Source of the DNA: Lachnospiraceae bacterium
GTDB taxonomy: Bacteria; Bacillota; Clostridia; Lachnospirales; Lachnospiraceae
Assembly: GCA_021201095.1 (NCBI GenBank)
Contig: JAJQFO010000036.1
Span: 1-46,304 of the forward strand
Direction: 5' to 3'
DNA length: 46,304 nucleotides
The notes under the pieces are model-generated. The model had not been told where the DNA came from, did no database searches, and was given only the letters and a program-made list of their open reading frames with translations. Positions within the stretch are counted from its first letter, which is position 1; each line of letters begins with the position of its first letter. This document shows, piece by piece, positions 2,675 to 42,206 of the stretch. A program made the translations under genes and the position numbers.

Positions 2675-3154
2675 TTATAAAGAATCATCCAGAAAACTTA
2701 TCTTTCTCATAATAATCAGCGATGGCTCAAAAATAATCACGTAGTTATCAATTTGTACGCTGATTTCATATTTTTCACGGTAGCAATCCACGGCTTCCTG
2801 CAAAAATTCTTCTGTAACATCCAGGTATTCCGCAGCCTCAAATCTGTTTTTACATCCGTATTTATAGGCTTCGATCAGACCGATCAGGCCGATCTTCTGG
2901 TCATACGCCCACAGCCTCGCGCGTAGCTCCTGCTTGCGGTTTTTGACAGTCTCCTGGTTGAGTATGTCACCGGAGCTTGTGTAGTAGTGTCCCAATTCTT
3001 CGGCAAGGACACACGACTTTTCAGCCTGCGTTCTCAGATCGCGATTAATGGCAATTCTGTTGCCTCGGATCCGTCCACCATATCCAGGTATATCTTTTTC
3101 TTTCACGATCAGACGTTCTTTGTCTGCCTGAATCAACATTTGTTCGTATGTCAC
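2675..3154 (-). CDS. ImmA/IrrE-type metallopeptidase
   Basis: About 159 residues. ImmA proteases cut the phage or ICE repressor when activated by DNA damage, causing induction. The family-like start (VTYEQML), the GNRIAI strand and the LAEELGHYY helix are visible; the usual HExxH reads EELGH here, as in some phage members, so the zinc site is slightly atypical. The GTG at 3154 is chosen because it follows GGGAG with good spacing and gives the usual family N-terminus; an ATG at 3178 is the alternative. It lies 4 bases after the repressor stop and is co-transcribed with it. Confidence 0.85.
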   Translation of the reverse strand: MTYEQMLIQADKERLIVKEKDIPGYGGRIRGNRIAINRDLRTQAEKSCVLAEELGHYYTSSGDILNQETVKNRKQELRARLWAYDQKIGLIGLIEAYKYGCKNRFEAAEYLDVTEEFLQEAVDCYREKYEISVQIDNYVIIFEPSLIIMRKISFLDDSL

Positions 3155-3158
3155 ACGA

Positions 3159-3629
3159 TCACTCCCATTCACTGTCATCAGCCATAATATCATCTGCGTG
3201 CTGTTTCTGCTCCGGAGTTGCTCCGGCGGGATCTTCATGTGCGGCGTTCAGTAGTACAAAGGATTCTGAGTTGATCTGGCTCTCCAGGCTGGCGATCTGC
3301 TCTACTCGGTCAGATTCCCACTGGATGACTGTATCCACATGCTTGCGGCCTACCTGATCAAGGGAGCGGTATTTTTCTATTAATGCAACCTCTGGACTGC
3401 TAAGGGATATACCACCAAAAATATCCATGGGGTTATCGCATTTATATATTCTACAAAGAGCTACGAAAACATCTGCATTTGGCATACTCAGCCCACTTTC
3501 GTATCCATATAAGGTTTTGGCTGAAATATTAATATCATATTCCGTTAACATCTCAACGATTTCATTTGCAGAGTATGCAGATGTTTTTCTAAGTTGCTTT
3601 AAACAGTTCGCGATATTTTGCTTGCTCAT
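3159..3629 (-). CDS. XRE-family lysogeny repressor (CI-like)
   Basis: A 156-residue protein. The N-terminal 65 residues form a helix-turn-helix of the XRE type (KTSAYSANEIVEML through KTLYGYESGLSMPNADVF). The C-terminal half is charged and probably mediates oligomerisation and contact with ImmA. The ATG at 3629 follows GGAGGTG; a longer frame to 3668 runs into the promoter. It is divergent from the Cro-like gene at 3800, with three operators between them, which identifies it as the main repressor. Confidence 0.88.
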   Translation of the reverse strand: MSKQNIANCLKQLRKTSAYSANEIVEMLTEYDINISAKTLYGYESGLSMPNADVFVALCRIYKCDNPMDIFGGISLSSPEVALIEKYRSLDQVGRKHVDTVIQWESDRVEQIASLESQINSESFVLLNAAHEDPAGATPEQKQHADDIMADDSEWE

Positions 3630-3658
3630 TTCTACACCTCCGTTTCTCTGATGGACAA

Positions 3659-3687
3659 ATAATAGCACGATTTTTTCACACTGTAAA
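3659..3687 (-). promoter_or_regulatory. Repressor promoter (PRM-like)
   Basis: On the minus strand: TTTACA (complement of 3682-3687), a 17-base spacer and TATTAT (complement of 3659-3664). Operator O1 ends the upstream side of this promoter. Confidence 0.7.
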
Positions 3688-3799: not shown

Positions 3800-4024
3800 T
3801 TGAATGTGACTAAGAATATTGCGAAATATGTAAAAGATATCGGCGTTAATCTTTCCGAGCTTTCAAGAAAATCAGGAGTGCCATACGGAGTTCTATATGC
3901 AAGTATCGGAGACGAAAATCGAGGAAGAGACTTGAGAGCGGATGAGCTTACAAATATTTGCTTCGTTCTCCGAATCAACCCCATGGATTTTGCCGATGAA
4001 CCAAAAAAGGAGTCAGCAGTATAA
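3800..4024 (+). CDS. Cro-like XRE transcriptional regulator
   Basis: A 74-residue helix-turn-helix protein (LSELSRKSGVPYGVLYAS through LTNICFVLRINPMDF). The start is taken as the TTG at 3800, since AGGAGG at 3787-3792 is then 7-8 bases upstream; the GTG at 3791 would lie inside the SD. It is divergent from the repressor across three operators and probably antagonises it early in lytic growth. The last codons and the downstream leader are duplicated near 5150. Confidence 0.8.
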   Translation: MNVTKNIAKYVKDIGVNLSELSRKSGVPYGVLYASIGDENRGRDLRADELTNICFVLRINPMDFADEPKKESAV

Positions 4025-4110
4025 ACCCGCGATCCTTACCCAGGTAAGGATAATACAAAAATATTGAACTGCCTGTTGACAGTTCAATAAAGAGAATGAA
4101 TGAGGAGGTG
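4011..4110 (+). repeat. Duplicated leader, copy 1 (pair at 5150-5248)
   Basis: About 100 bases repeated with one indel and one or two changes at 5150-5248. Each copy holds two hairpins: ATCCTTACC/GGTAAGGAT with a 2-base loop, and ATTGAACTG/CAGTTCAAT. Both end at a GAGGAGGTG ribosome binding site of a different small gene. Copy 1 includes the end of the Cro-like gene, so copy 2 is the derived one. Confidence 0.85.
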
Positions 4111-4116
4111 AGAGAA

Positions 4117-4321: not shown

Positions 4322-4582
4322 TTATGAAAGTATGATTTTCACGACCGCCTGTGAATTATAGGCAGTGGAATATTCATGATTCAGATAAAAATAATCGCCA
4401 GCAACGAAAGCGTCCATTATTGATGGAATCAAACCATTGTGAGTATGATTCCAAACTTCAACAGATTCAGCCATAGATGCGCTTGACTTTTCAAGTTCGT
4501 TTCTGACAATCGGGGTAATTAAATCTCCTTCATGAATTTCGAGCATACTTTTATCAGAAAAATAAAGAGTTGCCTTATTCAT
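4322..4582 (-). CDS. Small phage protein, unknown function
   Basis: An 86-residue protein starting MNKATLYFSDKSM, followed by an acidic helix and a C-terminal mixed part (DYFYLNHEYSTAY). The ATG at 4582 follows GAAAGGAG; the frame extends further upstream but without a ribosome binding site. It has its own promoter and operator-like palindrome at 4603-4660, one of three copies in this region. Convergent with the gene at 4117. Family not recognised. Confidence 0.65.
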   Translation of the reverse strand: MNKATLYFSDKSMLEIHEGDLITPIVRNELEKSSASMAESVEVWNHTHNGLIPSIMDAFVAGDYFYLNHEYSTAYNSQAVVKIILS

Positions 4583-4602
4583 TATGTTTTCTCCTTTCTT
4601 CG

Positions 4603-4660
4603 ATACTCGGCATGGCAGTGCCTGTATCGCAAGAATAGGAGCGGGAGACAGGAAAGTCAA
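4603..4660 (-). promoter_or_regulatory. Minus promoter plus palindrome, copy 1
   Basis: On the minus strand: TTGACT (complement of 4655-4660), a 17-base spacer and TATTCT (complement of 4632-4637). At the expected transcription start is an imperfect palindrome of the form ATAC-GGCA-TGCC-GTAT (4603-4627). The same cassette recurs at 5060-5117 and 5710-5767, each serving a different small minus-strand gene. Confidence 0.7.
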
Positions 4661-4727
4661 TAAAGAAGTTCGACATCTGCGGATGGTCGGATGAAGCAGC
4701 AGTATAGGGGAAAGCAGGTGAAGGAAG

Positions 4728-4898: not shown

Positions 4899-5037
4899 TA
4901 GCAGCCAAAGCGGATTTATAAGCAGCCTTGTAGCAATCATAAATGTCAAATGATTCAGTAGAGTGCTTAGTACTGTCGTATTGGATATAAATTGTTGCAA
5001 CCGCTATATCATGAGCACGCTTTTCTGTGTCAGTCAT
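4870..5037 (-). CDS. Small phage protein, unknown function
   Basis: A 55-residue protein, MTDTEKRAHDIAVATIYIQY...CPDEG. The ATG at 5037 follows AGGAGGAG. It resembles short phage proteins with a helical region around DIYDCYKAAYKSAL. It is driven by the second copy of the repeated promoter cassette and overlaps the 3' end of the plus-strand gene 4728-4898. Confidence 0.65.
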   Translation of the reverse strand: MTDTEKRAHDIAVATIYIQYDSTKHSTESFDIYDCYKAAYKSALAAIKMDCPDEG

Positions 5038-5059
5038 TTTAAATCATCTCCTCCTATAA

Positions 5060-5117
5060 ATACTCGGCATGGCAGTGCCTGTATCACAAGAATAGGAGCA
5101 GATGACAGAAATGTCAA
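5060..5117 (-). promoter_or_regulatory. Minus promoter plus palindrome, copy 2
   Basis: TTGACA (complement of 5112-5117), a 17-base spacer, TATTCT (complement of 5089-5094) and the palindrome at 5060-5084. Best -35 of the three copies. Confidence 0.7.
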
Positions 5118-5149
5118 TAAAGAAGTCCGGTATCCACGATTGCCAGACG

Positions 5150-5248
5150 AGTCAGCAGTATAAACCCGCGATCCTTACCCAGGTAAGGATAATACAAAAT
5201 ATTGAACTGCCTGTTGACAGTTCAATAGAGAGAATGAATGAGGAGGTG
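5150..5248 (+). repeat. Duplicated leader, copy 2
   Basis: Near-identical to 4011-4110, including the stop-proximal codons of the Cro-like gene, both hairpins and the GAGGAGGTG site. Here it leads into the gene at 5254. Confidence 0.85.
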
Positions 5249-5253
5249 AAGGA

Positions 5254-5385
5254 ATGCTGACGGATGACGAAAAAGAATTCTATGAGAAGATATCCCAGAT
5301 TGAGCACAAGGGTTTCCAAAAAGGAATCCTGGCGGGCTTTTTTATGGCAATGGCTATAGCAATCCTAGTCGCCATAATTCTATAA
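5254..5385 (+). CDS. Small single-pass membrane protein
   Basis: A 43-residue protein, MLTDDEKEFYEKIS..., with an acidic N-terminal helix and one C-terminal transmembrane helix (ILAGFFMAMAIAILVAIIL). Strong SD from leader copy 2. Its 3' end overlaps the convergent gene 5354-5689 by 32 bases. Function unknown. Confidence 0.55.
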   Translation: MLTDDEKEFYEKISQIEHKGFQKGILAGFFMAMAIAILVAIIL

Positions 5386-5689
5386 AAGCGTTTCCGATCA
5401 GCCCGATCAGCGAGATGGTGATGGCAATCCAGTTTGGGAGATCGTGGATACGTTTTTCACGGCGGTAGATTTTATAACGTCTGTACTGGTCGGAAATTGA
5501 GTAGATGCCTTTGTAGATTGGGAAGCCATCCTGGTCTATATCTGGCTCCGAAGTATCGATTATGAATTGATATTCATAATAAAGACTTTGAAAACATTTG
5601 ATTCGTTCAGCTGGCTGTTGCCTTTGAAAGATGAAAGTAAAGAGCGAACGCTTTTCTTCTGGAAGAAGATGAATGTCATCAAAATTCAT
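5354..5689 (-). CDS. Small protein with C-terminal membrane helix
   Basis: A 111-residue protein, MNFDDIHLLPEEKRSL.... A charged soluble region is followed by one hydrophobic segment near residues 88-108 (NWIAITISLIGLIGNAFI). SD GGAGGA lies before the ATG at 5689. The third repeated promoter cassette lies upstream at 5710-5767. Family not recognised. Confidence 0.65.
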   Translation of the reverse strand: MNFDDIHLLPEEKRSLFTFIFQRQQPAERIKCFQSLYYEYQFIIDTSEPDIDQDGFPIYKGIYSISDQYRRYKIYRREKRIHDLPNWIAITISLIGLIGNAFIELWRLGLL

Positions 5690-5709
5690 AAGATATCCTC
5701 CTTTCTATG

Positions 5710-5767
5710 ATACTCGGCATGGCAGTGCCTGTATCACAAGAATAGGAGCAGGAGAAAGGAAAGTCAA
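5710..5767 (-). promoter_or_regulatory. Minus promoter plus palindrome, copy 3
   Basis: TTGACT (complement of 5762-5767), a 17-base spacer, TATTCT (complement of 5739-5744) and the palindrome at 5710-5734. Confidence 0.7.
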
Positions 5768-5797
5768 TAAAAACTAACATGGGAGGCAGTAAAAAAT

Positions 5798-6040
5798 ATG
5801 CCGAAATCAAATTTATGTAAACCACGCGATGATCCGCGCAAAGCGGAAGTCCTGGTAGCGATCGAGTCAGGGCTGATCCGGCAGGACATGACAAGGAAAA
5901 GCCTGGCAAAGAAAATTGGAATGCCATACAGCACATTGACACAACGGCTCAGAAACCCACAAGACATCCGATTGGAGGAATTATGGTCGATATTGGATAC
6001 ACTGAAGGTTTCGGAGGATGGGCGGACAAAGATTATCTGA
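5798..6040 (+). CDS. Small HTH DNA-binding protein
   Basis: An 80-residue protein. A helix-turn-helix of XRE type is visible (TRKSLAKKIGMPYSTLTQRLRNPQDIRLEEL, residues about 31-61). SD GGGAGG precedes the ATG. It lies 15 bases before the DGR target gene 6056 and probably shares its transcript. It may bind one of the repeated operators in this region; no direct evidence. Confidence 0.75.
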   Translation: MPKSNLCKPRDDPRKAEVLVAIESGLIRQDMTRKSLAKKIGMPYSTLTQRLRNPQDIRLEELWSILDTLKVSEDGRTKII

Positions 6041-6055
6041 GGAGGAACAGACAAG

Positions 6056-6586
6056 ATGAAAGTAAAAAGAACCACGACAATCAAAACGGAATCTTATCAG
6101 GTCGGTGATGTGATTTCGTTTAAGCTTAAAACCGGCGAAAAGGTCAAAGCAATGGCTGTCGATCAGGACACAGAAGGCACGACATTTCTGTTCGTGGCTT
6201 GTCTGGGAAAAGAATACCCGATGAATTTAATCGGTACTGTTGAAGGAGGATATGATGCATCGGAACTTCGGAAAACACTGAACAGCGATATCCTCAAAAC
6301 CTTCCCTGGGAAAATCAGAGAGCTGATGCTGCCGGTATACGAAGATGATTTACTGACGATACCATGCAGAGCGGATATCTTCGGCGAAGAAAGCTGGGAG
6401 CCGATGAAGAAACGTCGCAACCGTATGGCATTCCGGGGAAGGAAAGAAGAACTCGAATGGTACTGGAATCGTGATGTTGTCTCTTCGACGTATTTCGCGT
6501 ATGTGACCAGCATCGGCCTTTCGTACGCGACCTACGCGTCCTACGTCTATGGGGTTCGCCCCGCTTTCCGAATCCGTAATCTTTAA
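6056..6586 (+). CDS. Remote DGR target protein, DUF6273-like lectin fold
   Basis: A 176-residue protein. Residues 1-130 resemble the DUF6273 type of Clostridia phages (EGGYDASELRKTLNSDIL, a Leu/Pro-rich strand LMLPVYEDDLL, then FGEESWEPM). The last 40 residues, from DVVSSTYFAY to GVRPAFRI, match the DGR template with most changes at template adenines, many giving Tyr. No signal peptide or membrane helix is visible. SD GAGGAGG precedes the ATG. It sits in the early region behind an HTH gene, 34 kb from the retroelement, so it is not an obvious virion protein. Role unknown; C-type lectin-like binding is inferred. Confidence 0.85.
   Translation: MKVKRTTTIKTESYQVGDVISFKLKTGEKVKAMAVDQDTEGTTFLFVACLGKEYPMNLIGTVEGGYDASELRKTLNSDILKTFPGKIRELMLPVYEDDLLTIPCRADIFGEESWEPMKKRRNRMAFRGRKEELEWYWNRDVVSSTYFAYVTSIGLSYATYASYVYGVRPAFRIRNL
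6478..6568 (+). repeat. DGR variable repeat 2 (VR2)
   Basis: Ungapped alignment with the template at 40791-40881. Thirteen differences fall at template A positions and four at other bases (template 40834, 40859, 40866 and 40875). Homology weakens upstream of 6478. The A bias shows past retrohoming; the non-A changes suggest an older event or a slightly different ancestral template. Confidence 0.85.
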
Positions 6587-6590
6587 ATCT

Positions 6591-6610
6591 CACCGGCCTT
6601 CAGGCCGGTG
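6591..6610 (+). promoter_or_regulatory. DGR-type hairpin after VR2
   Basis: A perfect 8-bp stem, CACCGGCC/GGCCGGTG, with loop TTCA, starting 5 bases after the stop codon. A hairpin or cruciform at this place is known to be needed for efficient retrohoming in the Bordetella phage DGR. VR1 has one at the same place with a different sequence. It could also act as a terminator, but no T run follows. Confidence 0.7.
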
Positions 6611-6648: not shown

Positions 6649-6921
6649 ATGGATAACCAGGCTGCAGAACGTCTGAGATACGCGATTGTCAAACAGGCCT
6701 GTCGGGATTACTTCGCGGCAAGCCGGAGGCTGCGCAGGCATCCACTCGACATAGTAGCAGCGGAAACGATAGACGAGTGCGAAAGATTTTTCCGCGGAGA
6801 CTGGTTTATGCACCTCTGCGATCTGGACGGAGAGTGGATCGTCCGGTCATTGCGGGAACGGTCCAAGAAACCTGGAAACCTTAAGTTTGGCGATAGAGCA
6901 ACAGAGGAGGAAGAAAATTGA
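6649..6921 (+). CDS. Conserved phage protein, unknown function
   Basis: A 90-residue protein, MDNQAAERLRYAIVKQACRDY..., with the central pattern DECERFFRGDWFMHLCDLDGEW common in Firmicutes prophages near the early genes. Mostly helical, soluble. SD GGAGGGGAGAAGG. It ends in an acidic run and overlaps the next start by 4 bases. Confidence 0.8.
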   Translation: MDNQAAERLRYAIVKQACRDYFAASRRLRRHPLDIVAAETIDECERFFRGDWFMHLCDLDGEWIVRSLRERSKKPGNLKFGDRATEEEEN

Positions 6922-7181
6922 AACTGAGAGAATATGCCGCCGGATTAACCGGGGCGATGACATTTTTTGCGACGATGGCTGCGCAGTGGATCATGACGGA
7001 CAGGCCGATCGAGGACATTCTGTTTCTGGCGGTCCTGGCGTATTTTATCGGGATTGGCGTAGTGTTGGCGGTTACGGAGCCGCGCAGAAAACAGCCGCGC
7101 CGGAAGCACCGGGCGAGGCCGATTGATCAGCCGGAACCGGGGCACCCGGTGACGGTCACACTAAACGAGGAGGAATGGTAG
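6918..7181 (+). CDS. Small membrane protein
   Basis: An 87-residue protein starting with TTG after GAGGAGGAAG. Two hydrophobic segments (about residues 9-25 and 34-53) are followed by a very basic Arg/Pro stretch (EPRRKQPRRKHRARP). Topology suggests a membrane hairpin with a cytoplasmic basic tail. Function unknown. Confidence 0.7.
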   Translation: MKLREYAAGLTGAMTFFATMAAQWIMTDRPIEDILFLAVLAYFIGIGVVLAVTEPRRKQPRRKHRARPIDQPEPGHPVTVTLNEEEW

Positions 7182-8236: not shown

Positions 8237-8959
8237 ATGAGTTACGTGAAAGCGACATATAAGTCGAAGAATGCGATGGATGTCTCCGAGTATCACACCG
8301 GGAGGTACGGGGCACCTGGGCAGGAAAGGCAGAAGAGAAAGAAAGCTACTCCGGAACAGATCAAAAAGCAGAATCAGTACAATCGAGAAAGAAAAGTAAA
8401 GTGGATGATTTGGGACCATTTTGACGTGAACGACTGGTTGGTGACATGGACATACCGAAAGGACGAACGGCCTCCGGATATGAACACGGCAAAGAAGGAT
8501 TTCAAAAAAGCGATTGAGAAGGTGAAAAAAGAATACAAAAAGCGAGGGCATGAACTTAAATGGATCCGGAACATAGAAGTCGGAACAAGGAATTCCTGGC
8601 ACGTTCACCTGATCATTAATAGCTTTGACGGATCAGCACCGATCATCAAGGATGCCTGGGAACACGGTGGGACAGACTTCAAACTGCTATATGCAGATGG
8701 GGAATTTAGAGAGCTGGCATCATATATCAGCAAGACACCAGAAACTGGAGCTGGGTTAAAGGAGACAAGCCTTTCTCACTCAAGGAACCTCCCGATCAAA
8801 GAAAGAGAGAAAAAAGTCTATCTCCACTGGAAGACCTGGAAGAAGGTCAGGATCCCGAAGGGCTGGCATCTGGACAAGGATACCCTGCAGGAGGGCGTCA
8901 ACCCGGTCACAGGATATGCATACCGGACATACACGCTGATCAGGAGCAGGAGGTGTTGA
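8237..8959 (+). CDS. HUH-type rolling-circle Rep-like protein
   Basis: A 240-residue protein. HUH nucleases nick one DNA strand and stay bound through a Tyr. The HUH motif is visible as WHVHLIIN (His 122 and 124), after a strand LKWIRNIEVG. A candidate nucleophile is Tyr163 in ASYISKTP, followed by SHSRNL, a pattern seen in replication-associated Rep proteins of Firmicutes and in microvirus replication proteins. No helicase domain, so it would need host or other helicases. It starts a run of replication genes (RNase H-like, SSB). The catalytic Tyr is inferred from position. Confidence 0.8.
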   Translation: MSYVKATYKSKNAMDVSEYHTGRYGAPGQERQKRKKATPEQIKKQNQYNRERKVKWMIWDHFDVNDWLVTWTYRKDERPPDMNTAKKDFKKAIEKVKKEYKKRGHELKWIRNIEVGTRNSWHVHLIINSFDGSAPIIKDAWEHGGTDFKLLYADGEFRELASYISKTPETGAGLKETSLSHSRNLPIKEREKKVYLHWKTWKKVRIPKGWHLDKDTLQEGVNPVTGYAYRTYTLIRSRRC

Positions 8960-8964
8960 AGAAG

Positions 8965-9459
8965 ATGCGGTGGGTGAATATCTACATAGAGACAGACAGC
9001 ACGGTCCTCAAAGAAGCCATTCGCCGGACGGGTTACGTAATGGAATGTCTGGTCCATGGCGAAGCGGTGACAAGGGAGACGTTCGGGACAAAAACAGGCA
9101 CGTACAACGCCGCAGTGCTGCAGACGATGGCGGAGGCGCTCGGCAGGATGAAAGAACCCTGTGAGATTCACATCTACAGCAGGAACGTCTATGTCATGAA
9201 CATGCTCCAGTATCTCCCAGAGTGGGAGCAGGAGGGATACCGGCTCAAAAGCGGGGAACTGCGAAAGAACACATCCGAGTGGCAGGCTATCCGCAGGTTG
9301 TCCACCCAGCATTTGCTCGTAGGCGAAGCGGGAGAACATCCGTACTCCGAGTGGATGATAGCACAGATGGCACATCTTGTATCTGAACACGAAACAGACG
9401 GCTCTGATAACAAAAATGGCACGTCTGATAACAAAACAGGCGGCTTTGATAACAAATAG
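8965..9459 (+). CDS. RNase H-like phage protein
   Basis: About 164 residues. The order of strands and acidic residues (VNIYIETDSTVLKEA, then GTYNAAVLQTMAEAL, then CEIHIYSRNVYVMNML) fits an RNase H fold. The ATG at 8965 is chosen; GTG 8953 and TTG 8956 lie on or beside AGGAGG. The C-terminus has three short repeats ending SDNK or FDNK. It follows the Rep gene and precedes ssb, fitting a replication role. Confidence 0.7.
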   Translation: MRWVNIYIETDSTVLKEAIRRTGYVMECLVHGEAVTRETFGTKTGTYNAAVLQTMAEALGRMKEPCEIHIYSRNVYVMNMLQYLPEWEQEGYRLKSGELRKNTSEWQAIRRLSTQHLLVGEAGEHPYSEWMIAQMAHLVSEHETDGSDNKNGTSDNKTGGFDNK

Positions 9460-9540: not shown

Positions 9541-10050
9541 ATGAACAAGGTAATTTTGATGGGCCGTCTCACACGCGACCCGGATGTCCGGTACTCGCCG
9601 GCGGAAGGATCTCTGGCATATGCCAGGTACACTTTGGCGGTCGACCGGCGCGTAAAGAGGGACGACAACAACCAGACTGCGGACTTTATCAGCTGCGTTA
9701 CGTTCGGGAAGGGCGCGGAATTTGCCGAGAAGTATCTCCGGCAGGGGATCAAGATTGTAGTCACCGGCAGGATCCAGACCGGCAGCTATACGAACCGGGA
9801 CGGCCAGAAGATCTACACGACGGATGTAGTCGTGGAGGAGCAGGAATTTGCCGAGAGTAAGTCGGCCCAGAACGGGAACGGTCAGGGAACCGGCGGGGCA
9901 GCTTCACAGCGATCCGGCGGAGCGACGCCTCGCCAGGGAACTGGCGCGCAGGGCAGGCAGAGGGAGGATTACAGGCAGCAGTCATTCGTGGATGGAGACG
10001 GATTCATGAACATTCCGGATGGCATTGACGAGGAGTTGCCGTTTACATGA
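9541..10050 (+). CDS. ssb: Single-stranded DNA-binding protein
   Basis: A 169-residue protein with an OB fold in residues 1-105 (MNKVILMGRLTRDPDVRYSP, then FISCVTFGKGAEFAEKYLRQG and the TGRIQTGSYTNRDG strand). A Gly/Gln-rich linker and the acidic tip EELPFT follow, close to the partner-binding tail DDDIPF. SD AAAGGCAGGGAGAGG. Acts in phage replication. Confidence 0.95.
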   Translation: MNKVILMGRLTRDPDVRYSPAEGSLAYARYTLAVDRRVKRDDNNQTADFISCVTFGKGAEFAEKYLRQGIKIVVTGRIQTGSYTNRDGQKIYTTDVVVEEQEFAESKSAQNGNGQGTGGAASQRSGGATPRQGTGAQGRQREDYRQQSFVDGDGFMNIPDGIDEELPFT

Positions 10051-10705: not shown

Positions 10706-11003
10706 GGAGAGCATCCTGCACAGGAAGGACGGCACCTGTTACCTGTGCATCGCACTCCATGGAGATTACCGGCTCCATAAAGATCTGCACCGCCACCACA
10801 TCTTCGGAGGATCGAACAGGAGCTTGTCCGAGGCGTACGGCTTGGCTGTTTACCTCTGCCTCGAACACCATGAATTCGGCCCGGAGGCGGTGCATAACAA
10901 TGCGGAGGTCGCGGAGATCCTCCATAGAATCGGACAGGAGGCTTTTGAAAAGACATATCCGGATACTGAGTTTTTAAGTCTTTTCGGGAAAAACTACCTG
11001 TGA
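10650..11003 (+). CDS. HNH-like zinc protein (phage DNA processing)
   Basis: About 117 residues. CYLC, then DLHRHHIFGGSNR, then LCLEHHEFG form an HNH-like treble-clef zinc site of the type found in phage recombination or junction-processing proteins. A basic start (KKTAKKKRRK) fits DNA binding. The start is uncertain: ATG 10650 gives the usual basic N-terminus, while ATG 10698 has the better SD (GAGGAGG). Confidence 0.75.
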   Translation: MDLMFPKKTAKKKRRKMHRESILHRKDGTCYLCIALHGDYRLHKDLHRHHIFGGSNRSLSEAYGLAVYLCLEHHEFGPEAVHNNAEVAEILHRIGQEAFEKTYPDTEFLSLFGKNYL

Positions 11004-11087
11004 ATTGTGGACAAAATCAGAAATGTCTTTGCGTAATTGCTGAAAGACACAAAAAAGACAACAATTTAGATATACCAACAGCATCTT

Positions 11088-11116
11088 TTGATAAATAATC
11101 AAAGACAAATTATAGA
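11088..11116 (+). promoter_or_regulatory. Promoter for the PcfK/PcfJ operon
   Basis: TTGATA (11088-11093), a 17-base spacer and TATAGA (11111-11116), in the 197-base gap before the PcfK-like gene. The same gap has repeated AGAAATGTC and GTGTCCGCGA-like words. Confidence 0.5.
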
Positions 11117-11200
11117 AATGTCCGCGATAAAGAACAAAAAATAACCTGCACAACTTAAAGAATGAATCGTGGAAGTGTCCGCGAAGAGAGGAAGAGAGAT

Positions 11201-11692
11201 ATGTTCGATAAGTTTGGAGAGATGGATTCCTGCGAAGAGATCAATGAACTCGCAGAGAATCTGTTTAACGAAGGCGATACAGAGAGCCTGAAGCTGATGG
11301 CGAAGGAGAACGGGATCCCGGAGGAGATGACCGATCTGTACCTAAGCGGGGAAATGCCGGAACTCTGCGACGCCCTGACAGCAGCCCTGGGAAAGATCGA
11401 GATAGAATCTGCCGATCTGAAACCGAAGGAGATCATGGAAGACTGGGTGGAATACCTGAAAGGCCAGTGCATGGAGGATGAACACTTCGCTGCACAGGTA
11501 CGGAAGAAGGGAAAAAGCCTGAAAGGCTGCATAGCCTCTCTGCTCAAATGGTCCTTTGGGCACCAGCAGGAGATCGACCATGACATCGTCAAAGCGGCGA
11601 ATATGACCAATGTTAGGAGAGTCACACTGGGCATCCCGGGGATGGGTCAGGCAAAGCAGCTCATCCGTGAGTATTACGGAGGTGCGGCATGA
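11201..11692 (+). CDS. PcfK-like protein
   Basis: A 163-residue, acidic, mostly helical protein. The phrases LAENLFNEGDTESLKLMAKENGIP and DHDIVKAANMTNV fit the PcfK family, named for the enterococcal conjugative plasmid pCF10 and found in many Firmicutes mobile elements. ATG 11201 follows GAGGAAGAG; a frame start at 11162 is weaker. It overlaps the PcfJ-like gene by 4 bases (ATGA), so the two are translationally coupled. Confidence 0.8.
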   Translation: MFDKFGEMDSCEEINELAENLFNEGDTESLKLMAKENGIPEEMTDLYLSGEMPELCDALTAALGKIEIESADLKPKEIMEDWVEYLKGQCMEDEHFAAQVRKKGKSLKGCIASLLKWSFGHQQEIDHDIVKAANMTNVRRVTLGIPGMGQAKQLIREYYGGAA

Positions 11693-13686
11693 AGAGAGCG
11701 AAACTTTTAAAGACAGAACCGATTGAATATCCGAAGATCATCAACAAAAGGAAAGCAGTTGCCTTAAGCCGCATCACAGAAGCCGATGGGGAGCAGGCAC
11801 TGGAAATCGACCTGTTCTTTGCAGGAGAAAGGAGAGCCAGATATTTCGCGGATCCGGAGAATCATTACGCATGGATCAATGGGAAATGGACGGATGACAG
11901 GCTGGATAACGCCGCGCTGGTCTGCCTGGCCGGGAAGGCAAGGACCGGAGGCTGGTATTACTACGGCGAACGGAATTACGTATGGGCATCAGCGGAAGAC
12001 GAGGAACGCACAGAGAATTATCTGGGCGAATGTGTTGAATATTACGAGGACAACCTATCACAATCAAAGCGCCAGCAGGCACAAAATCGTAAAACTGAAA
12101 GAATCAACGACATCATGAGCCATGTGCCAGTCGTGCCGGATGGAATGGATCGGTGGATAGAGGAAGAGATTTTCCCAGAGAATTATCTGTTTTTCCGGAA
12201 AACACCGAAGGGCTGCGCTTACAGCTGCACTGCCTGCCGGGGAAAAGGCTGGCAGAAAAAGCGATTAAAGAGCGGAGCACGCATCATCTGCCCAAAGTGC
12301 GGCGCGGAGGTGATCACGCAGAAATCGAAGGAACAGACCATCTCCAGAAAAGAGACCATCGTGCTCCTGCAGAAGCTTTCCCTCCCGAAACCGATAAAAA
12401 TTGGCAGGATACAGATCATGGCTTCAGAGAAACACTGGATCGAACGCCAGTTTCACGCGGTGTGCAGCTGGGAGCAGGAGAAAAAAGAGATTCATCTGTA
12501 CGAGGATATCCGGGTACTCATTCCGGAGAACAAGACATACGGGAAGGTTTATTACGGTACCAGTCCGAATGCGGACGAGTTCGGCCAGACATTCTGGGAT
12601 AGCAATCCATACAACAAACGCTTCGCGAGTGCGTATCTCTACCCGGGCACTCTCCCGGATGCATTGCCGGACTGTCTGAAGAAAAGCGGAATCATGGAGA
12701 TGATGCCACAGAAATTTCAGGTAAACAAATACATTGTCAATTATGAGTCTCAGCCCTGGCTGGAATATCTCGCAAAAGCAGGTCTGACGGTTTTGACGTC
12801 AGAAATTCTGACGGAGTACGGATGGTTTTATGTATCGAACGAACCGTATGAAATCGAGAAGAATGCCGCAAGCCTGAAAGAAGCCCTGAAGCTGGACGGG
12901 AACCGCACGCACCGCATGAAGCAGATCAACGGGACCTTGAACGCGCTCCGCTGGCTCCAGTATGAGCAGCGGCAGGAGGACAAAGGAAAGCATCTGCGGA
13001 TATCCCAGGAGTCTCTTGAATTCCTGAACAGAAAGAAAATAAGCCCGCGCGACTGCGAGCAGCTCCTCAAAGAGCTGGGGAGCGTGGACCGGATGGTGAA
13101 CTACCTGAAAAAGCAGAAGGTTGCACCGACGAATTTTATTTATACCTGGCGCGACTATCTGCGGATGGCACAGAATGAAGGCTACGACATTACAGATGAC
13201 ATCATCCGGTACCCGAAGGACCTGAAAGCCCGCCACGACCAGCTGGTTGAGCAGATTAACCGGAGAGAGCAGGAAAAGATAGCCAGAGGGAAGGAAAACA
13301 GGTACAGAGAGCTGGACATAAAGATCCAGGCACACCTGCTGGAAGCAAAGAAATACTTTTACGAGGACGATACCTACATGATCATACCGGCGGGGAAATG
13401 TATGGAGCTGGTCGAGGAAGGCCGAACACTTCATCACTGCGTAGGGCTCAACGACACCTATATGTCCCGGATGGCAAGGGGCGAGTCATGGATCCTGTTT
13501 CTGCGGAAAAAGGAGAATCTGGAAAAGCCGTGGTACACCATAGAGATCCGGATGGAGGATGACAAGATCCTGCAGTATTATTCCAAGTTTGACCGCAAGC
13601 CGGAGCTGGACAAAGTGGACGCGCTGTTGAAGAAGTTCAAGCAGAGTATCCCGAAGACCAGGAAGGTACAGATCCGTATCGCGTGA
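11689..13686 (+). CDS. PcfJ-like protein
   Basis: A 665-residue protein. It has a Cys4 zinc-ribbon-like region near residues 180-206 (CTACRGKGW, then ICPKCG) and the PcfJ signature near residue 578 (GRTLHHCVGLNDTY) followed by WYTIEIRM. PcfJ is known from conjugative plasmids; its biochemical role in phages is unsettled. Length and pairing with PcfK are normal. Likely linked to replication or DNA processing by context. Confidence 0.85.
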   Translation: MKRAKLLKTEPIEYPKIINKRKAVALSRITEADGEQALEIDLFFAGERRARYFADPENHYAWINGKWTDDRLDNAALVCLAGKARTGGWYYYGERNYVWASAEDEERTENYLGECVEYYEDNLSQSKRQQAQNRKTERINDIMSHVPVVPDGMDRWIEEEIFPENYLFFRKTPKGCAYSCTACRGKGWQKKRLKSGARIICPKCGAEVITQKSKEQTISRKETIVLLQKLSLPKPIKIGRIQIMASEKHWIERQFHAVCSWEQEKKEIHLYEDIRVLIPENKTYGKVYYGTSPNADEFGQTFWDSNPYNKRFASAYLYPGTLPDALPDCLKKSGIMEMMPQKFQVNKYIVNYESQPWLEYLAKAGLTVLTSEILTEYGWFYVSNEPYEIEKNAASLKEALKLDGNRTHRMKQINGTLNALRWLQYEQRQEDKGKHLRISQESLEFLNRKKISPRDCEQLLKELGSVDRMVNYLKKQKVAPTNFIYTWRDYLRMAQNEGYDITDDIIRYPKDLKARHDQLVEQINRREQEKIARGKENRYRELDIKIQAHLLEAKKYFYEDDTYMIIPAGKCMELVEEGRTLHHCVGLNDTYMSRMARGESWILFLRKKENLEKPWYTIEIRMEDDKILQYYSKFDRKPELDKVDALLKKFKQSIPKTRKVQIRIA

Positions 13687-39136: not shown

Positions 39137-39220
39137 ACAAAACAAACATACCGACGCACATTTTGGGAGTGCGCCGCTAACCCAATACCTTCAACAATTA
39201 TGGGTAGGAAGGAGCTTTTT

Positions 39221-40057
39221 ATGTCTACATCAGCGACATACTCCGCACGTACGTTTACGGCAGGCAACACATTTACCGCCGCGCAGGCAAACGTACTAGA
39301 TGCGGGAATCTATGACACGCACTATCCAAATTCAGGTGCGCATAATTCGATTTTCCGTGGGAAATCCCTCGGCACAGCAATGACCTCGACGCAAGCCGGG
39401 TACATTTCCAACGCGACATTTGCCGATCTTTTTGTCGGCGATTACTGGACAATCTCATCTAAAGTATACCGTATCGCAGGATTCGACTACTGGTATAACT
39501 GCTATTCATCCACGGCCATCGGTCACAATGCTATCGTAGTGCCTGATGCAACCATGTATAATGCACCGATGAATTCCACAAATACCACTTCTGGCGCCTA
39601 TGTTGGTTCCGCAATGTACACCTGCGAGGAAATCACAGTATCCGATGTAACCTATACTGGCCTCGCGAATGCCATCAGCACATTGCAATCCGCATTTGGC
39701 GATTACCTGCTGACCTATGAAAATTATCTGGCAAATGCAGTTACGAACGGATACCCATCAGCGCAGGCATGGTATACAGATCGCGTCTGTGACCTGATGA
39801 CGGAGCAGATGGTATATGGTTCTGCTTGCATGCAGCAGATGAGCTATGGCGGTACGCTGGTAGCAAACAGACGAATCGGCAAGTCGCAGCTTCCGTTGTT
39901 TGCGTTGAATCCGAGATACATAAATATTCGTGCGACCTGGTGGTTGTCTGACGTTGTCTCTTCGGCGTGTTTCGCGTTTGTGACCGCCACCGGCAATGCG
40001 AGCGCGAGCGACGCGTCCAACGCCAATGGTGTTCGCCCTGCTTTCCTCGTATCTTAA
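39221..40057 (+). CDS. DGR target protein 1, C-type lectin fold
   Basis: A 278-residue protein. The N-terminal part (STFADLFVGDYWTI-like NATFADLFVGDYWTISSKVYR) and the middle (LTYENYLANAVTNGYPSAQAW) are typical of gut Clostridia phage display proteins; the end from WWLSDVVSSACF to GVRPAFLV is the variable lectin face. ATG 39221 follows GGAAGGAG. Lies behind the tail genes, so it is probably the receptor-binding virion protein. Confidence 0.9.
   Translation: MSTSATYSARTFTAGNTFTAAQANVLDAGIYDTHYPNSGAHNSIFRGKSLGTAMTSTQAGYISNATFADLFVGDYWTISSKVYRIAGFDYWYNCYSSTAIGHNAIVVPDATMYNAPMNSTNTTSGAYVGSAMYTCEEITVSDVTYTGLANAISTLQSAFGDYLLTYENYLANAVTNGYPSAQAWYTDRVCDLMTEQMVYGSACMQQMSYGGTLVANRRIGKSQLPLFALNPRYINIRATWWLSDVVSSACFAFVTATGNASASDASNANGVRPAFLVS
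39929..40045 (+). repeat. DGR variable repeat 1 (VR1)
   Basis: Ungapped match to the template 40765-40881. All 14 differences are at template adenines (27 A in the block); no other base differs. Changes affect codons such as AAC to ACC, AAT to TGT and AAC to GCC. Confidence 0.95.
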
Positions 40058-40066
40058 ATCCTCAAT

Positions 40067-40091
40067 CTCCCCGACCCTCGCGGTCGGGGAG
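40067..40091 (+). promoter_or_regulatory. DGR hairpin after VR1
   Basis: CTCCCCGACC/GGTCGGGGAG, a 10-bp stem with a 5-base loop, starting 9 bases after the stop. Same position as the hairpin after VR2 but a different sequence. Confidence 0.8.
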
Positions 40092-40127: not shown

Positions 40128-40724
40128 ATGTCCGTATTAAAGCGGAACCAGCAGGAATCGGATTTTGAAGTATATCATCAATACCACGTAATGCGGAGAA
40201 ACATTACGGAGCTAATGCTCCACAATTTCGGGTTCTCCAACGCAAAGATGGAAAAGATGCTGTCAAAGTATTTCCGGGGCAAGCCAAAAGACAAGCTTAC
40301 CGAGCAGGAAATTACATCATACAACCGATACCGCGAAAAGCTGGTCAATTATATAAAATATTTTATTCCGGACGAGCGCAAAGCAATAACCGACCTGATG
40401 CGCGAACTGGGCAAATACCTGCACACCGCAAATGATATATACCCAACATACATGTCAGAGCTGGAAGAACGTCGACTGTATCAGGAAAAGGCAATCGGAA
40501 TCTGTGACGCTTTAAAACAGGAATTGCAGTATGCCATTGAGACCATCCCAGTCGATATCAACAAATATACACGTATTGCAGAGCTGATCGACCGGGAGAT
40601 TGCGCTGATTAAAGGATGGCGCAAGAAAGACAATAGGCTTGTGTCGGTTATCGCCAAAGCAGAGGCAAAAAGAAAAGAAAAAATGAATAAAGCAAAATCA
40701 GATGAAAAGCCAGATATAAAATAA
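40128..40724 (+). CDS. avd: DGR accessory protein Avd
   Basis: A 198-residue, basic, mostly helical protein (HQYHVMRRNITELMLHNFGF, then RKAITDLMRELGKYLHTAND). Avd proteins form pentamers and bind the reverse transcriptase and template RNA. It lies between VR1 and the template, as in known DGRs. It is longer than the phage BPP-1 Avd, with a charged C-terminal tail of about 25 residues. Confidence 0.85.
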   Translation: MSVLKRNQQESDFEVYHQYHVMRRNITELMLHNFGFSNAKMEKMLSKYFRGKPKDKLTEQEITSYNRYREKLVNYIKYFIPDERKAITDLMRELGKYLHTANDIYPTYMSELEERRLYQEKAIGICDALKQELQYAIETIPVDINKYTRIAELIDREIALIKGWRKKDNRLVSVIAKAEAKRKEKMNKAKSDEKPDIK

Positions 40725-40764: not shown

Positions 40765-40881
40765 CGTGCGAACTGGTGGTTGTCTGACGTTGTCTCTTCG
40801 ACGAATTTCGCGAATGTGAACAACAACGGCAATGCGAACGCGAACAACGCGTCCAACGCCAATGGTGTTCGCCCTGATTTC
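40765..40881 (+). repeat. DGR template repeat (TR)
   Basis: 117 bases in the gap between avd and the reverse transcriptase. In the target frame it is Asn-rich (AAC/AAT codons, ANVNNNGNANANN), the standard design that gives wide residue choice at mutated sites and avoids stop codons. VR1 and VR2 align to it without gaps. Confidence 0.95.
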
Positions 40882-41021: not shown

Positions 41022-42206
41022 GTGAGAGACATTGTCGATAAAGAAAGTTTGATTATACCCGACGACTGGATAGAGCCAGATGACATCATGGACGATGCGA
41101 ATGTGTTGTATGACGCATGGCTTGCCGCTCAGAAAAATTCTGCGTGGAAACCGAAAGTGCAGATATTTGAGATGGATTATCTCTGCCAGATAGCCAGACT
41201 GCAAAGAGAAATCAGAGACCGCACATACGAGGTGAGCAAACCATCCGAATTTATCACAAGAGAACGCGGAAAGGAACGCCTCGTGCATGGCGGACAAGTA
41301 CGCGACCGGGTTGTGGAACACGCCCTGAATGACGAAATCATCATGCCGAGTATCACGCCGTACCTTATTTACAACAATGGCGCAAGCCAGAAAAACAAGG
41401 GAACGGATTTTACCCGTAGGCAGTTAGTCGAACATCTGGTGGAATCTTACAACCAGCACGGTAACGACGGATACATCCTTATAATGGATGATTCAAAATT
41501 TTATGACAATATCCGCCACGATATCCTGCTTAATCAGTTCCGCAAGTACATACATGATGATACTGCGCTCTGGCTGGTAGAAAAGTTTGTTAAGGCGTTT
41601 GAGGTGGACGTGTCGTATATGACCGACAAGGAATACGCCGTCTGCATGGACATGCTGTTTAATTCTATCGAATATCAAAAGATAGACAAGAGTTTACTGA
41701 CTGGCGAGAAATATATGGCAAAACATTTAGACATCGGTAACCAAACATCGCAGTCCGCCGGGATTCTTTATCCATCTCCCGTGGATAATTACGTGAAAAT
41801 CGTTTGCGGAGAGAAATACTACGCCAGATATATGGACGATAGCTACGTTATCCACGAAAGCCGGGAACATCTGGTGGAGTTACAGAAAGATATCACTCGT
41901 GAAGCTGCAAAAATCGGCATCACGGTAAATCAGCGCAAGACGCATATCGAAAAGCTGTCCAGCCATTGGAGATTCATGCAGATACAATACTGCCTGATGG
42001 ATAACGGCAGAATCCAGCAGAAAATAAATCCAAAGCGCGTGACAGCCCAACGCCGCAAGATGAAGAAGCTTGCACCCAAAATGGAATCCAGACAATTTCA
42101 CGACGAGGTATACGCATGGATAAAGAGTAACCGCAAATACATGAGCAGGAAGCAATATCAAAACATAGTCACATTACACAATCAGCTACAGGAGGTAACA
42201 CTATGA
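41022..42206 (+). CDS. DGR reverse transcriptase
   Basis: A 394-residue group II-intron-like RT. Catalytic YMDD is at 270-273 with an earlier Asp in YILIMDDSKFYDNI (156/157). The DGR-type signature IGNQTSQ (238-244), replacing QGxxxSP of other RTs, is linked to adenine mutagenesis. The start is taken as GTG 41022; AAAGGA lies close upstream and the true start could be slightly different. Confidence 0.95.
   Translation: MRDIVDKESLIIPDDWIEPDDIMDDANVLYDAWLAAQKNSAWKPKVQIFEMDYLCQIARLQREIRDRTYEVSKPSEFITRERGKERLVHGGQVRDRVVEHALNDEIIMPSITPYLIYNNGASQKNKGTDFTRRQLVEHLVESYNQHGNDGYILIMDDSKFYDNIRHDILLNQFRKYIHDDTALWLVEKFVKAFEVDVSYMTDKEYAVCMDMLFNSIEYQKIDKSLLTGEKYMAKHLDIGNQTSQSAGILYPSPVDNYVKIVCGEKYYARYMDDSYVIHESREHLVELQKDITREAAKIGITVNQRKTHIEKLSSHWRFMQIQYCLMDNGRIQQKINPKRVTAQRRKMKKLAPKMESRQFHDEVYAWIKSNRKYMSRKQYQNIVTLHNQLQEVTL

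Follow-up and report, generated by a model that had tools for sequence, protein, structure and literature searches.

A short early-region DUF6273 protein as a putative distant second target of a prophage DGR

The copying of a template repeat (TR) by a reverse transcriptase (RT) into cDNA is the established mechanism of diversity-generating retroelements (DGRs), whose targets in phages are mostly read as receptor-binding proteins. An Avd-like accessory protein is common, though not universal, in these systems. The two-target DGR of phage Shimadzu is reportedly the work of Cornuault and colleagues. In this phage a short early-region protein, homologous to the one described here, carries a target repeat (VR2) far from RT and Avd, and one TR serves both the tail fibre and this protein. 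As cited in an excerpt of PMC11792537, Shimadzu is a case in print of a second, distant and non-structural DGR target. Quimbyvirus likewise has one DGR target beside tail genes and a distant one that was judged non-structural (excerpt of PMC8008677), and a second distal VR near counter-defence genes has been described in four gut prophage species (excerpt of PMC12629997). Two DUF6273 targets under one DGR, with small targets, are found in the Faecalibacterium prophages Lelie and CP11 (excerpt of PMC11792537), and two DUF6273 targets share one DGR in nd4/nd12 as well (excerpt of PMC10743442). Like the locus described here, Bordetella phage BPP-1 has a TR, a VR and, just after the VR, a hairpin with an 8-bp GC-rich stem (excerpt of PMC3240598). 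Here we analyse the window, i.e., the whole 46,304-nucleotide stretch of contig JAJQFO010000036.1 from a Lachnospiraceae bacterium, in which a prophage DGR has one target beside its RT and a second one in the early region (Table 1).

Table 1. Coordinates of the DGR components and of the early genes around the second target in the window
Feature	Position	Strand	Description
Metalloprotease gene	2675..3238	-	opposite strand to VR2 gene
CI-like gene	3159..3668	-	opposite strand to VR2 gene
Cro-like gene	3800..4024		upstream of VR2 gene
HTH regulator gene	5798..6040	+	directly upstream of VR2 gene
Second DGR target gene	6056..6586	+	176-aa single-domain DUF6273 protein, phrog_21980 family
Second target repeat VR2	6476..6566	+	3′ end of target gene 6056..6586
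Post-VR2 hairpin	6591..6610	+	8-bp stem, TTCA loop, CACCGGCC-TTCA-GGCCGGTG
Replication initiation protein gene	8237..8959	+	early region, downstream of VR2 gene
RNase H-like protein gene	8953..9459		downstream of VR2 gene
Single-strand DNA binding protein (SSB) gene	9541..10050	+	early region
First DGR target gene	39200..40057	+	285 aa, C-terminal DUF6273-like end
VR1	39953..40043	+	13 changes relative to TR, 13/13 at template A
Post-VR1 hairpin	40067..40091	+	10-bp stem, 5-nt loop
Avd-like accessory gene	40128..40724	+	phrog_3206, E 3.4e-6
Template repeat TR	40789..40879	+	91-nt alignments to VR1 and VR2
Reverse transcriptase gene	41022..42206	+	IGNQTSQ and YMDD motifs; RVT_1 E 3.3e-15

The DGR of the window and its second repeat

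Judged by sequence, the DGR machinery of the window is complete, with an RT, an Avd-like gene, TR, VR1, VR2 and both hairpins. The IGNQTSQ motif of the RT fits [ILV]GxxxSQ, which we take to be the DGR-type RT motif, its YMDD fits YxDD, and the RT is 39% identical to that of phage Fontainebleau and 30% identical to that of Shimadzu. The Avd-like protein shares 34% identity with the Shimadzu Avd over 77 aa (E 5.8e-10), and the Pfam match of the first target to DUF6273 lies just under the curated cut-off. The hallmarks of DGRs found in the window are TR/VR differences concentrated at A, the RT motifs, the Avd-like protein and the hairpin behind the VR.

VR2 aligns with TR over 91 nt without gaps, with 74 identical positions and 17 changes, 13 of which hit a template A (8 A>T, 4 A>C and 1 A>G), the other four being G>T, C>T, T>G and T>C. 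These counts agree with those of an earlier sequence-only reading of the same DNA, which had placed the repeat at 6478-6568 instead of at the position in Table 1; its distance of 34 kb between the second target and the retroelement also holds. The concentration of changes at A is significant in both repeats (P = 1.7e-6 for VR2 and P = 1.3e-9 for VR1, hypergeometric). None of the 13 A-changes of VR2 is at a third codon position. Of the four non-A changes, two are third-position changes close to the 3′ end of the repeat and the other two alter amino acids. The A>C change at TR position 40877 is present in VR2 and also in VR1, and a like difference is found at this site in the six other phages with enough sequence (G038, Fontainebleau, Shimadzu, L072, L070 and L109). 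Because it is common to VR1 and these six phages, we take it as a probable fixed difference between the ends of TR and VR, and therefore 12 of the remaining 16 VR2 changes would reflect mutagenesis. The four non-A changes suggest that VR2 of the window has not been fully overwritten recently.

Across the whole window only VR1 (78 matches) and VR2 (74 matches) are strong partners of TR, and the next best place has 42 matches on the opposite strand. A closer template elsewhere in the host genome, which the sequence-only reading had named as evidence that would count against it, was not found in the host assembly (GCA_021201095.1, our G000), where a 121-nt TR query finds nothing at E < 0.1 besides TR, VR1 and VR2. 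For VR2 as a DGR target, the evidence is as strong as sequence alone can make it. We propose that the RT makes an adenine-mutated cDNA of the TR RNA, which would then replace the 3′ ends of two genes, at VR1 beside the RT and at VR2 34 kb off, both targets being marked by the shared 3′ repeat end and the hairpin behind it.

The hairpin behind VR2 has a predicted DNA folding energy of -10.2 kcal/mol (z -4.2), and 0 of 200 shuffled sequences fold as well. An 8-bp hairpin after the VR2 stop codon had been noticed before and does exist, but four bases separate it from the stop, not five; in the VR1 gene nine bases do. The two hairpins had also been said to lie at the same place, which is correct when the distance is measured from the shared repeat end (CTTTCC) to the hairpin start (21 nt for VR2 and 20 nt for VR1) but not when it is measured from the stop. 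Whether the hairpin is conserved had been proposed as a check; a hairpin follows the stop in 37 of the 60 family targets, compared with 63 of the 1075 neighbour genes.

The loop most common in the hairpins of VR2 relatives is CTTGT (20 of the 37 hairpins). The post-VR2 hairpin was also considered as a terminator, and this was rejected: no T-run stands behind it, and it is absent from the output of the terminator scan.

Recurrence of the two-target layout

When viral contigs were scanned with the single VR2 protein no relative was found, and an alignment of six members was needed. With this alignment we obtained 67 viral and 27 bacterial-genome loci, and those of the window, Fontainebleau and Shimadzu bring the total to 97, of which dereplication leaves 64. 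The bacterial genome records with family loci bear titles such as Lachnospiraceae, Oscillospiraceae, Clostridium and similar. Within the order, 3 of 295 genomes have a phrog_21980 match at E 1e-10, and one of the three is the genome from which the window comes.

An RT match, by a profile that is not specific to DGRs, is present in 23 of the 37 viral contigs (at least 20 kb) with a VR2 homologue. In 22 of these 23 RT-bearing records, a TR beside the RT differs from the remote homologue by no more than one non-A mismatch in 66 nt (21 by the search itself and 22 with the VR of L127 placed by hand). The TR search keeps the placement with the fewest non-A mismatches, and hence non-cognate VR2/RT-locus pairs were used as a control, among which 19 of 528 reach the same level; related phages with similar TRs would supply some of these 19. 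The gap between target and RT in the relatives ranges from about 5 to 50 kb, and a VR1 lies near the RT for all 22 placed TRs (21 records, one with two RTs). Over 24 phages, 293 VR2 changes are located at A and 2 elsewhere, and the corresponding numbers for VR1 are 281 and 7 (66-nt windows with 489 A and 1095 non-A sites in total; L127, L100 and G038 left out).

Individual genomes show the same pattern. All 15 changes in the Fontainebleau VR2 are at A within a 70-nt core, and the gene lies between those for DNA polymerase I and a helicase; when the comparison is extended to 85 nt, beyond the 5′ end of the repeat, 15 of 23 changes are at A. In Shimadzu 15 of 15 changes are at A over 110 nt, and the gene adjoins that for the Erf recombinase. 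The same-genus genome G038 has 10 of 10 changes at A in VR2 and 17 of 17 in VR1, with TR and VR2 on different contigs. On the homologue's own contigs, no TR/VR pair with the homologue was found in G036, G038 or G024 (contig C45 of G024 read from 1 to 60000 of 62725). In the stretches examined of these fragmented assemblies, no TR was found in G036, and in G024 the best partner is another VR-like place, with no clean TR. L100 has a partial RT match and no TR was found for it. In L127 the target ORF is interrupted, and along 66 nt the DNA behind the interruption has no non-A mismatch to its TR. All 22 whole genomes examined, out of 27 genome loci, gave RT matches, which are uninformative because the profile may fit other RTs. 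Given these relatives, a DGR target is the clear reading of VR2.

Some loci depart from the simple layout. One viral record (L070 in G101, IMGVR_UViG_3300031998_003588) has two RT matches, each with a TR and a VR1 nearby, and two family targets (L070 and L085). In L114 an ORF of 187 aa that precedes the family target contains a third VR-like place (L114:6377), with 13 of 14 changes at A. The VR is internal in family members of ~285 aa (L117, L120, L121, L146, L148, L151, L152, L154 and L156), which by eye have a charged, coiled-coil-like C-terminal part of ~100 aa after the VR.

Variation of VR2 and possible roles of its protein

We compared close relatives in three sets, of 6, 4 and 3 unique sequences, which do not include the window's own lineage. 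Template-A sites vary at 24 of 25, 23 of 25 and 20 of 27 positions in the three sets, other VR sites at 5 of 61, 16 of 63 and 1 of 72, and the rest of the alignment at 31 of 574, 24 of 572 and 14 of 562. The 16 of 63 may come from a set in which some members were written from a different TR. In eight sequence pairs, dN/dS of the gene body is 0.04-0.21 in six, and synonymous sites are saturated in the other two (window-L131 and L114-L145). For seven pairs, dN/dS of the VR is ~1-3; the eighth lacks synonymous changes, and no ratio could be computed for it. The four more diverged pairs (window-L131, L114-L145, L099-L115 and L072-L073) have less synonymous divergence in the VR than in the body, which is what repeated overwriting from TR would give; the close pair L090-L113 is reversed (0.31 in the VR and 0.06 in the body). 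These three sets and eight pairs reject the view that VR2 varies like neighbouring DNA, which the sequence-only reading had named as the pattern that would speak against it. The natural VR variation among relatives is consistent with retrohoming, and the VR2 gene body is, by these ratios, under purifying selection while the VR changes.

The VR2 protein is matched by DUF6273 (PF19789, 32.6 bits vs a cut-off of 23.5) and by phrog_21980 (E 5.1e-21), and the latter is matched by 52 of the 52 members of family alignment A3. No second domain was matched in the window's VR2 protein in Pfam or PHROG. The Foldseek second-look list for the protein has no row for Mtd or TvpA, variable proteins of DGRs with a C-type lectin fold, which excludes nothing. 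By average hydropathy no export signal was found in the targets of the window, Fontainebleau and Shimadzu, which peak at 1.09, 0.88 and 0.70 and have no membrane segment. Among the relatives, a hydrophobic segment (average hydropathy at least 1.6) is absent in 93 of 94, the exception lying in a doubtful N-terminal extension.

The gene stands behind an HTH regulator gene, as had been described, 34 kb from TR and outside the virion block, between HTH genes and the genes for replication initiation and SSB. The metalloprotease encoded on the opposite strand is presumably ImmA-like. These neighbours give the VR2 gene an early lytic setting. The earlier suggestion that it is expressed in lysogens is unsupported: the gene sits in the early strand downstream of the CI-like/Cro-like pair, and rightward early genes in that position are normally repressed in lysogens of temperate phages.

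Repeats are also found in this part of the window. An 88-nt direct repeat is present in three copies (4577-4664, 5034-5121 and 5684-5771), which are 76-100% identical. On the minus strand, each copy has a sigma70-like promoter (TTGAC-17-TATTCT) that precedes a small ORF of that strand; these copies are possibly a shared operator. A second duplication (4010-4116 and 5149-5254), with 51 nt at 100% and 59 nt at 95% identity, contains a minus-strand terminator-like stem of 12 pairs.

We consider it fairly probable that the gene at 6056-6586 is the second target of the prophage's own DGR and encodes an early intracellular hypervariable binder, likely of a varying host or rival-phage factor. By comparison, its family of short DUF6273 proteins is found repeatedly in phages that also have a VR1 target on the virion side, far from the VR2 gene. 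Because its gene is in the early region and the protein is short, with neither a membrane segment nor an export signal nor any virion anchor that could be recognised, it would probably act inside the infected cell. Since fast random variation is most useful against a partner that itself keeps changing, the likeliest guess for the ligand is a varying factor of the host or of a rival phage, in counter-defence or phage-phage conflict. No defence gene was seen as a consistent partner among the 132 neighbour ORFs, as judged from the 25 families listed out of 100 with matches; these include several matches to methyltransferase models and three to DruK. Tentatively, there may be a recurrent class of temperate phages in which one DGR with one template evolves, in parallel, an external tail-side binder and a minimal early internal one from the same domain family, antibody-like and directed against a varying host-defence or rival-phage factor.

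The comparison with VR1 proteins bears on this reading and on a different, unlikely one, in which the phage would have in the VR2 protein one more adhesin or decoration of its virion, encoded in the early region only by position, with variation that tunes host or mucus binding as in Mtd. VR1 proteins are longer than VR2 proteins in 20 of the 20 phages (median 323 vs 183.5 aa). Among the ORFs upstream of VR1 (up to three each, 58 in 20 loci), the 25 commonest families include, as named ones, tail, baseplate, head and further virion proteins. Around VR2, ORFs up to three places away were tallied (25 loci, 132 of 141 listed ORFs). Here the 25 commonest of 152 PHROG families include, as named ones, replication and recombination proteins (primase, polymerase, helicase, ssDNA-annealing and exonuclease), a regulator and a transposition protein, each with at most 6 members (polymerase and helicase 4-5 each, from few related loci); the commonest neighbour family (9 of the 132 ORFs) has no known function. 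Against a virion adhesin, then, stand the shorter VR2 proteins, the lack of a second domain in the window's protein and annotated neighbours of early type in phages with differing early modules. The earlier statement that the VR2 protein shows no sign of being a virion part agrees with its single domain, its size and its mainly replication or regulatory neighbours; an early gene position does not prove absence from the virion. Published DUF6273 targets have been proposed as receptor binders (excerpt of PMC10743442), VR1 and VR2 share their scaffold and amino-acid bias, and a Hoc-like head-decoration PHROG is also matched by 2 of the 52 family members, all of which would fit an adhesin.

The bias common to VR1 and VR2 consists of more Tyr and Gly and less Cys. 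It does not separate their ligands, and RT sequence context could cause it. That VR2 is a copy of VR1 or has the same ligand was also considered and not retained: the repeats agree at 176 of the 489 template-A sites (permuted mean 156.9, P = 0.024), which is too weak either way.

An envelope role appears improbable: the VR2 protein would act with phage membrane proteins at the inner membrane face to block rival phages (superinfection exclusion). DUF6353-type proteins lie near the target in 22 of the 64 dereplicated loci and on both sides of it in 16. They are paralogous, and most are hydrophobic with two segments (e.g., L114:6520-7284, 8498-9268 and 10784-11749); our literature search found no paper on DUF6353. 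With such neighbours a membrane role of the VR2 protein is possible, and small one-segment proteins near the targets would fit it too, among them the window's hydrophobic protein two genes downstream of the VR2 gene (6918-7181, maximum hydropathy 2.86). However, the window, Fontainebleau and Shimadzu have no DUF6353-type neighbour, the targets of the last two adjoin replication genes, and the targets themselves are without membrane segments. That VR2 is a bystander, i.e., a stray repeat overwritten by homing whose product has no selected function, is strongly disfavoured and very improbable: the BPP-1 repeat end and hairpin sufficed to target a foreign gene (excerpt of PMC3240598), so a stray site could be hit, but the gene body appears to be under purifying selection wherever dN/dS was computable, the protein is conserved across diverged phages (31-68% identity), and a VR1 partner accompanies every placed TR.

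Comparison with described systems

What the VR2 protein binds, and where, is directly testable in cultured lysogens with active phages. Shimadzu is reported active in Roseburia intestinalis L1-82 (excerpt of PMC6563222) and Fontainebleau in Acutalibacter muris (excerpt of PMC10197239). A large DGR survey states that it was unable to detect distant targets, and such targets thus form a gap in its sampling (excerpt of PMC8144416). In the literature searched, which lacked most subscription papers and all preprints, we found no description of the VR2 family as a recurrent early-region partner.

The described systems differ from the window in several respects. The Shimadzu protein is ~31% identical to that of the window, and its gene has methyltransferase and Erf recombinase genes as neighbours, not an HTH gene. 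The Quimbyvirus phages infect Bacteroides and are likened here by layout, their distant target lying on the opposite strand near a nuclease, methyltransferases and a tRNA ligase (excerpt of PMC8008677). The phages with a distal VR near counter-defence genes are likened by description, and most DGR phages in that work infect Bacteroidota (excerpt of PMC12629997). In nd4/nd12 the second target is described as inside the DGR cassette (excerpt of PMC10743442). In BPP-1 the target is the tail protein Mtd, and the hairpin loop is GRNA, which is also the loop consensus given for phage DGR hairpins, compared with TTCA here and, most often, CTTGT in the relatives (excerpt of PMC3240598 for BPP-1). VR2 is less unusual than the sequence-only reading held, as distant non-structural second targets are in print (excerpts of PMC8008677, PMC12629997 and PMC11792537). 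What the present analysis would add to these systems is the family-wide pattern, in which a homologous short protein appears to be the distant second target across differing early modules, with a virion-side partner for every placed TR.
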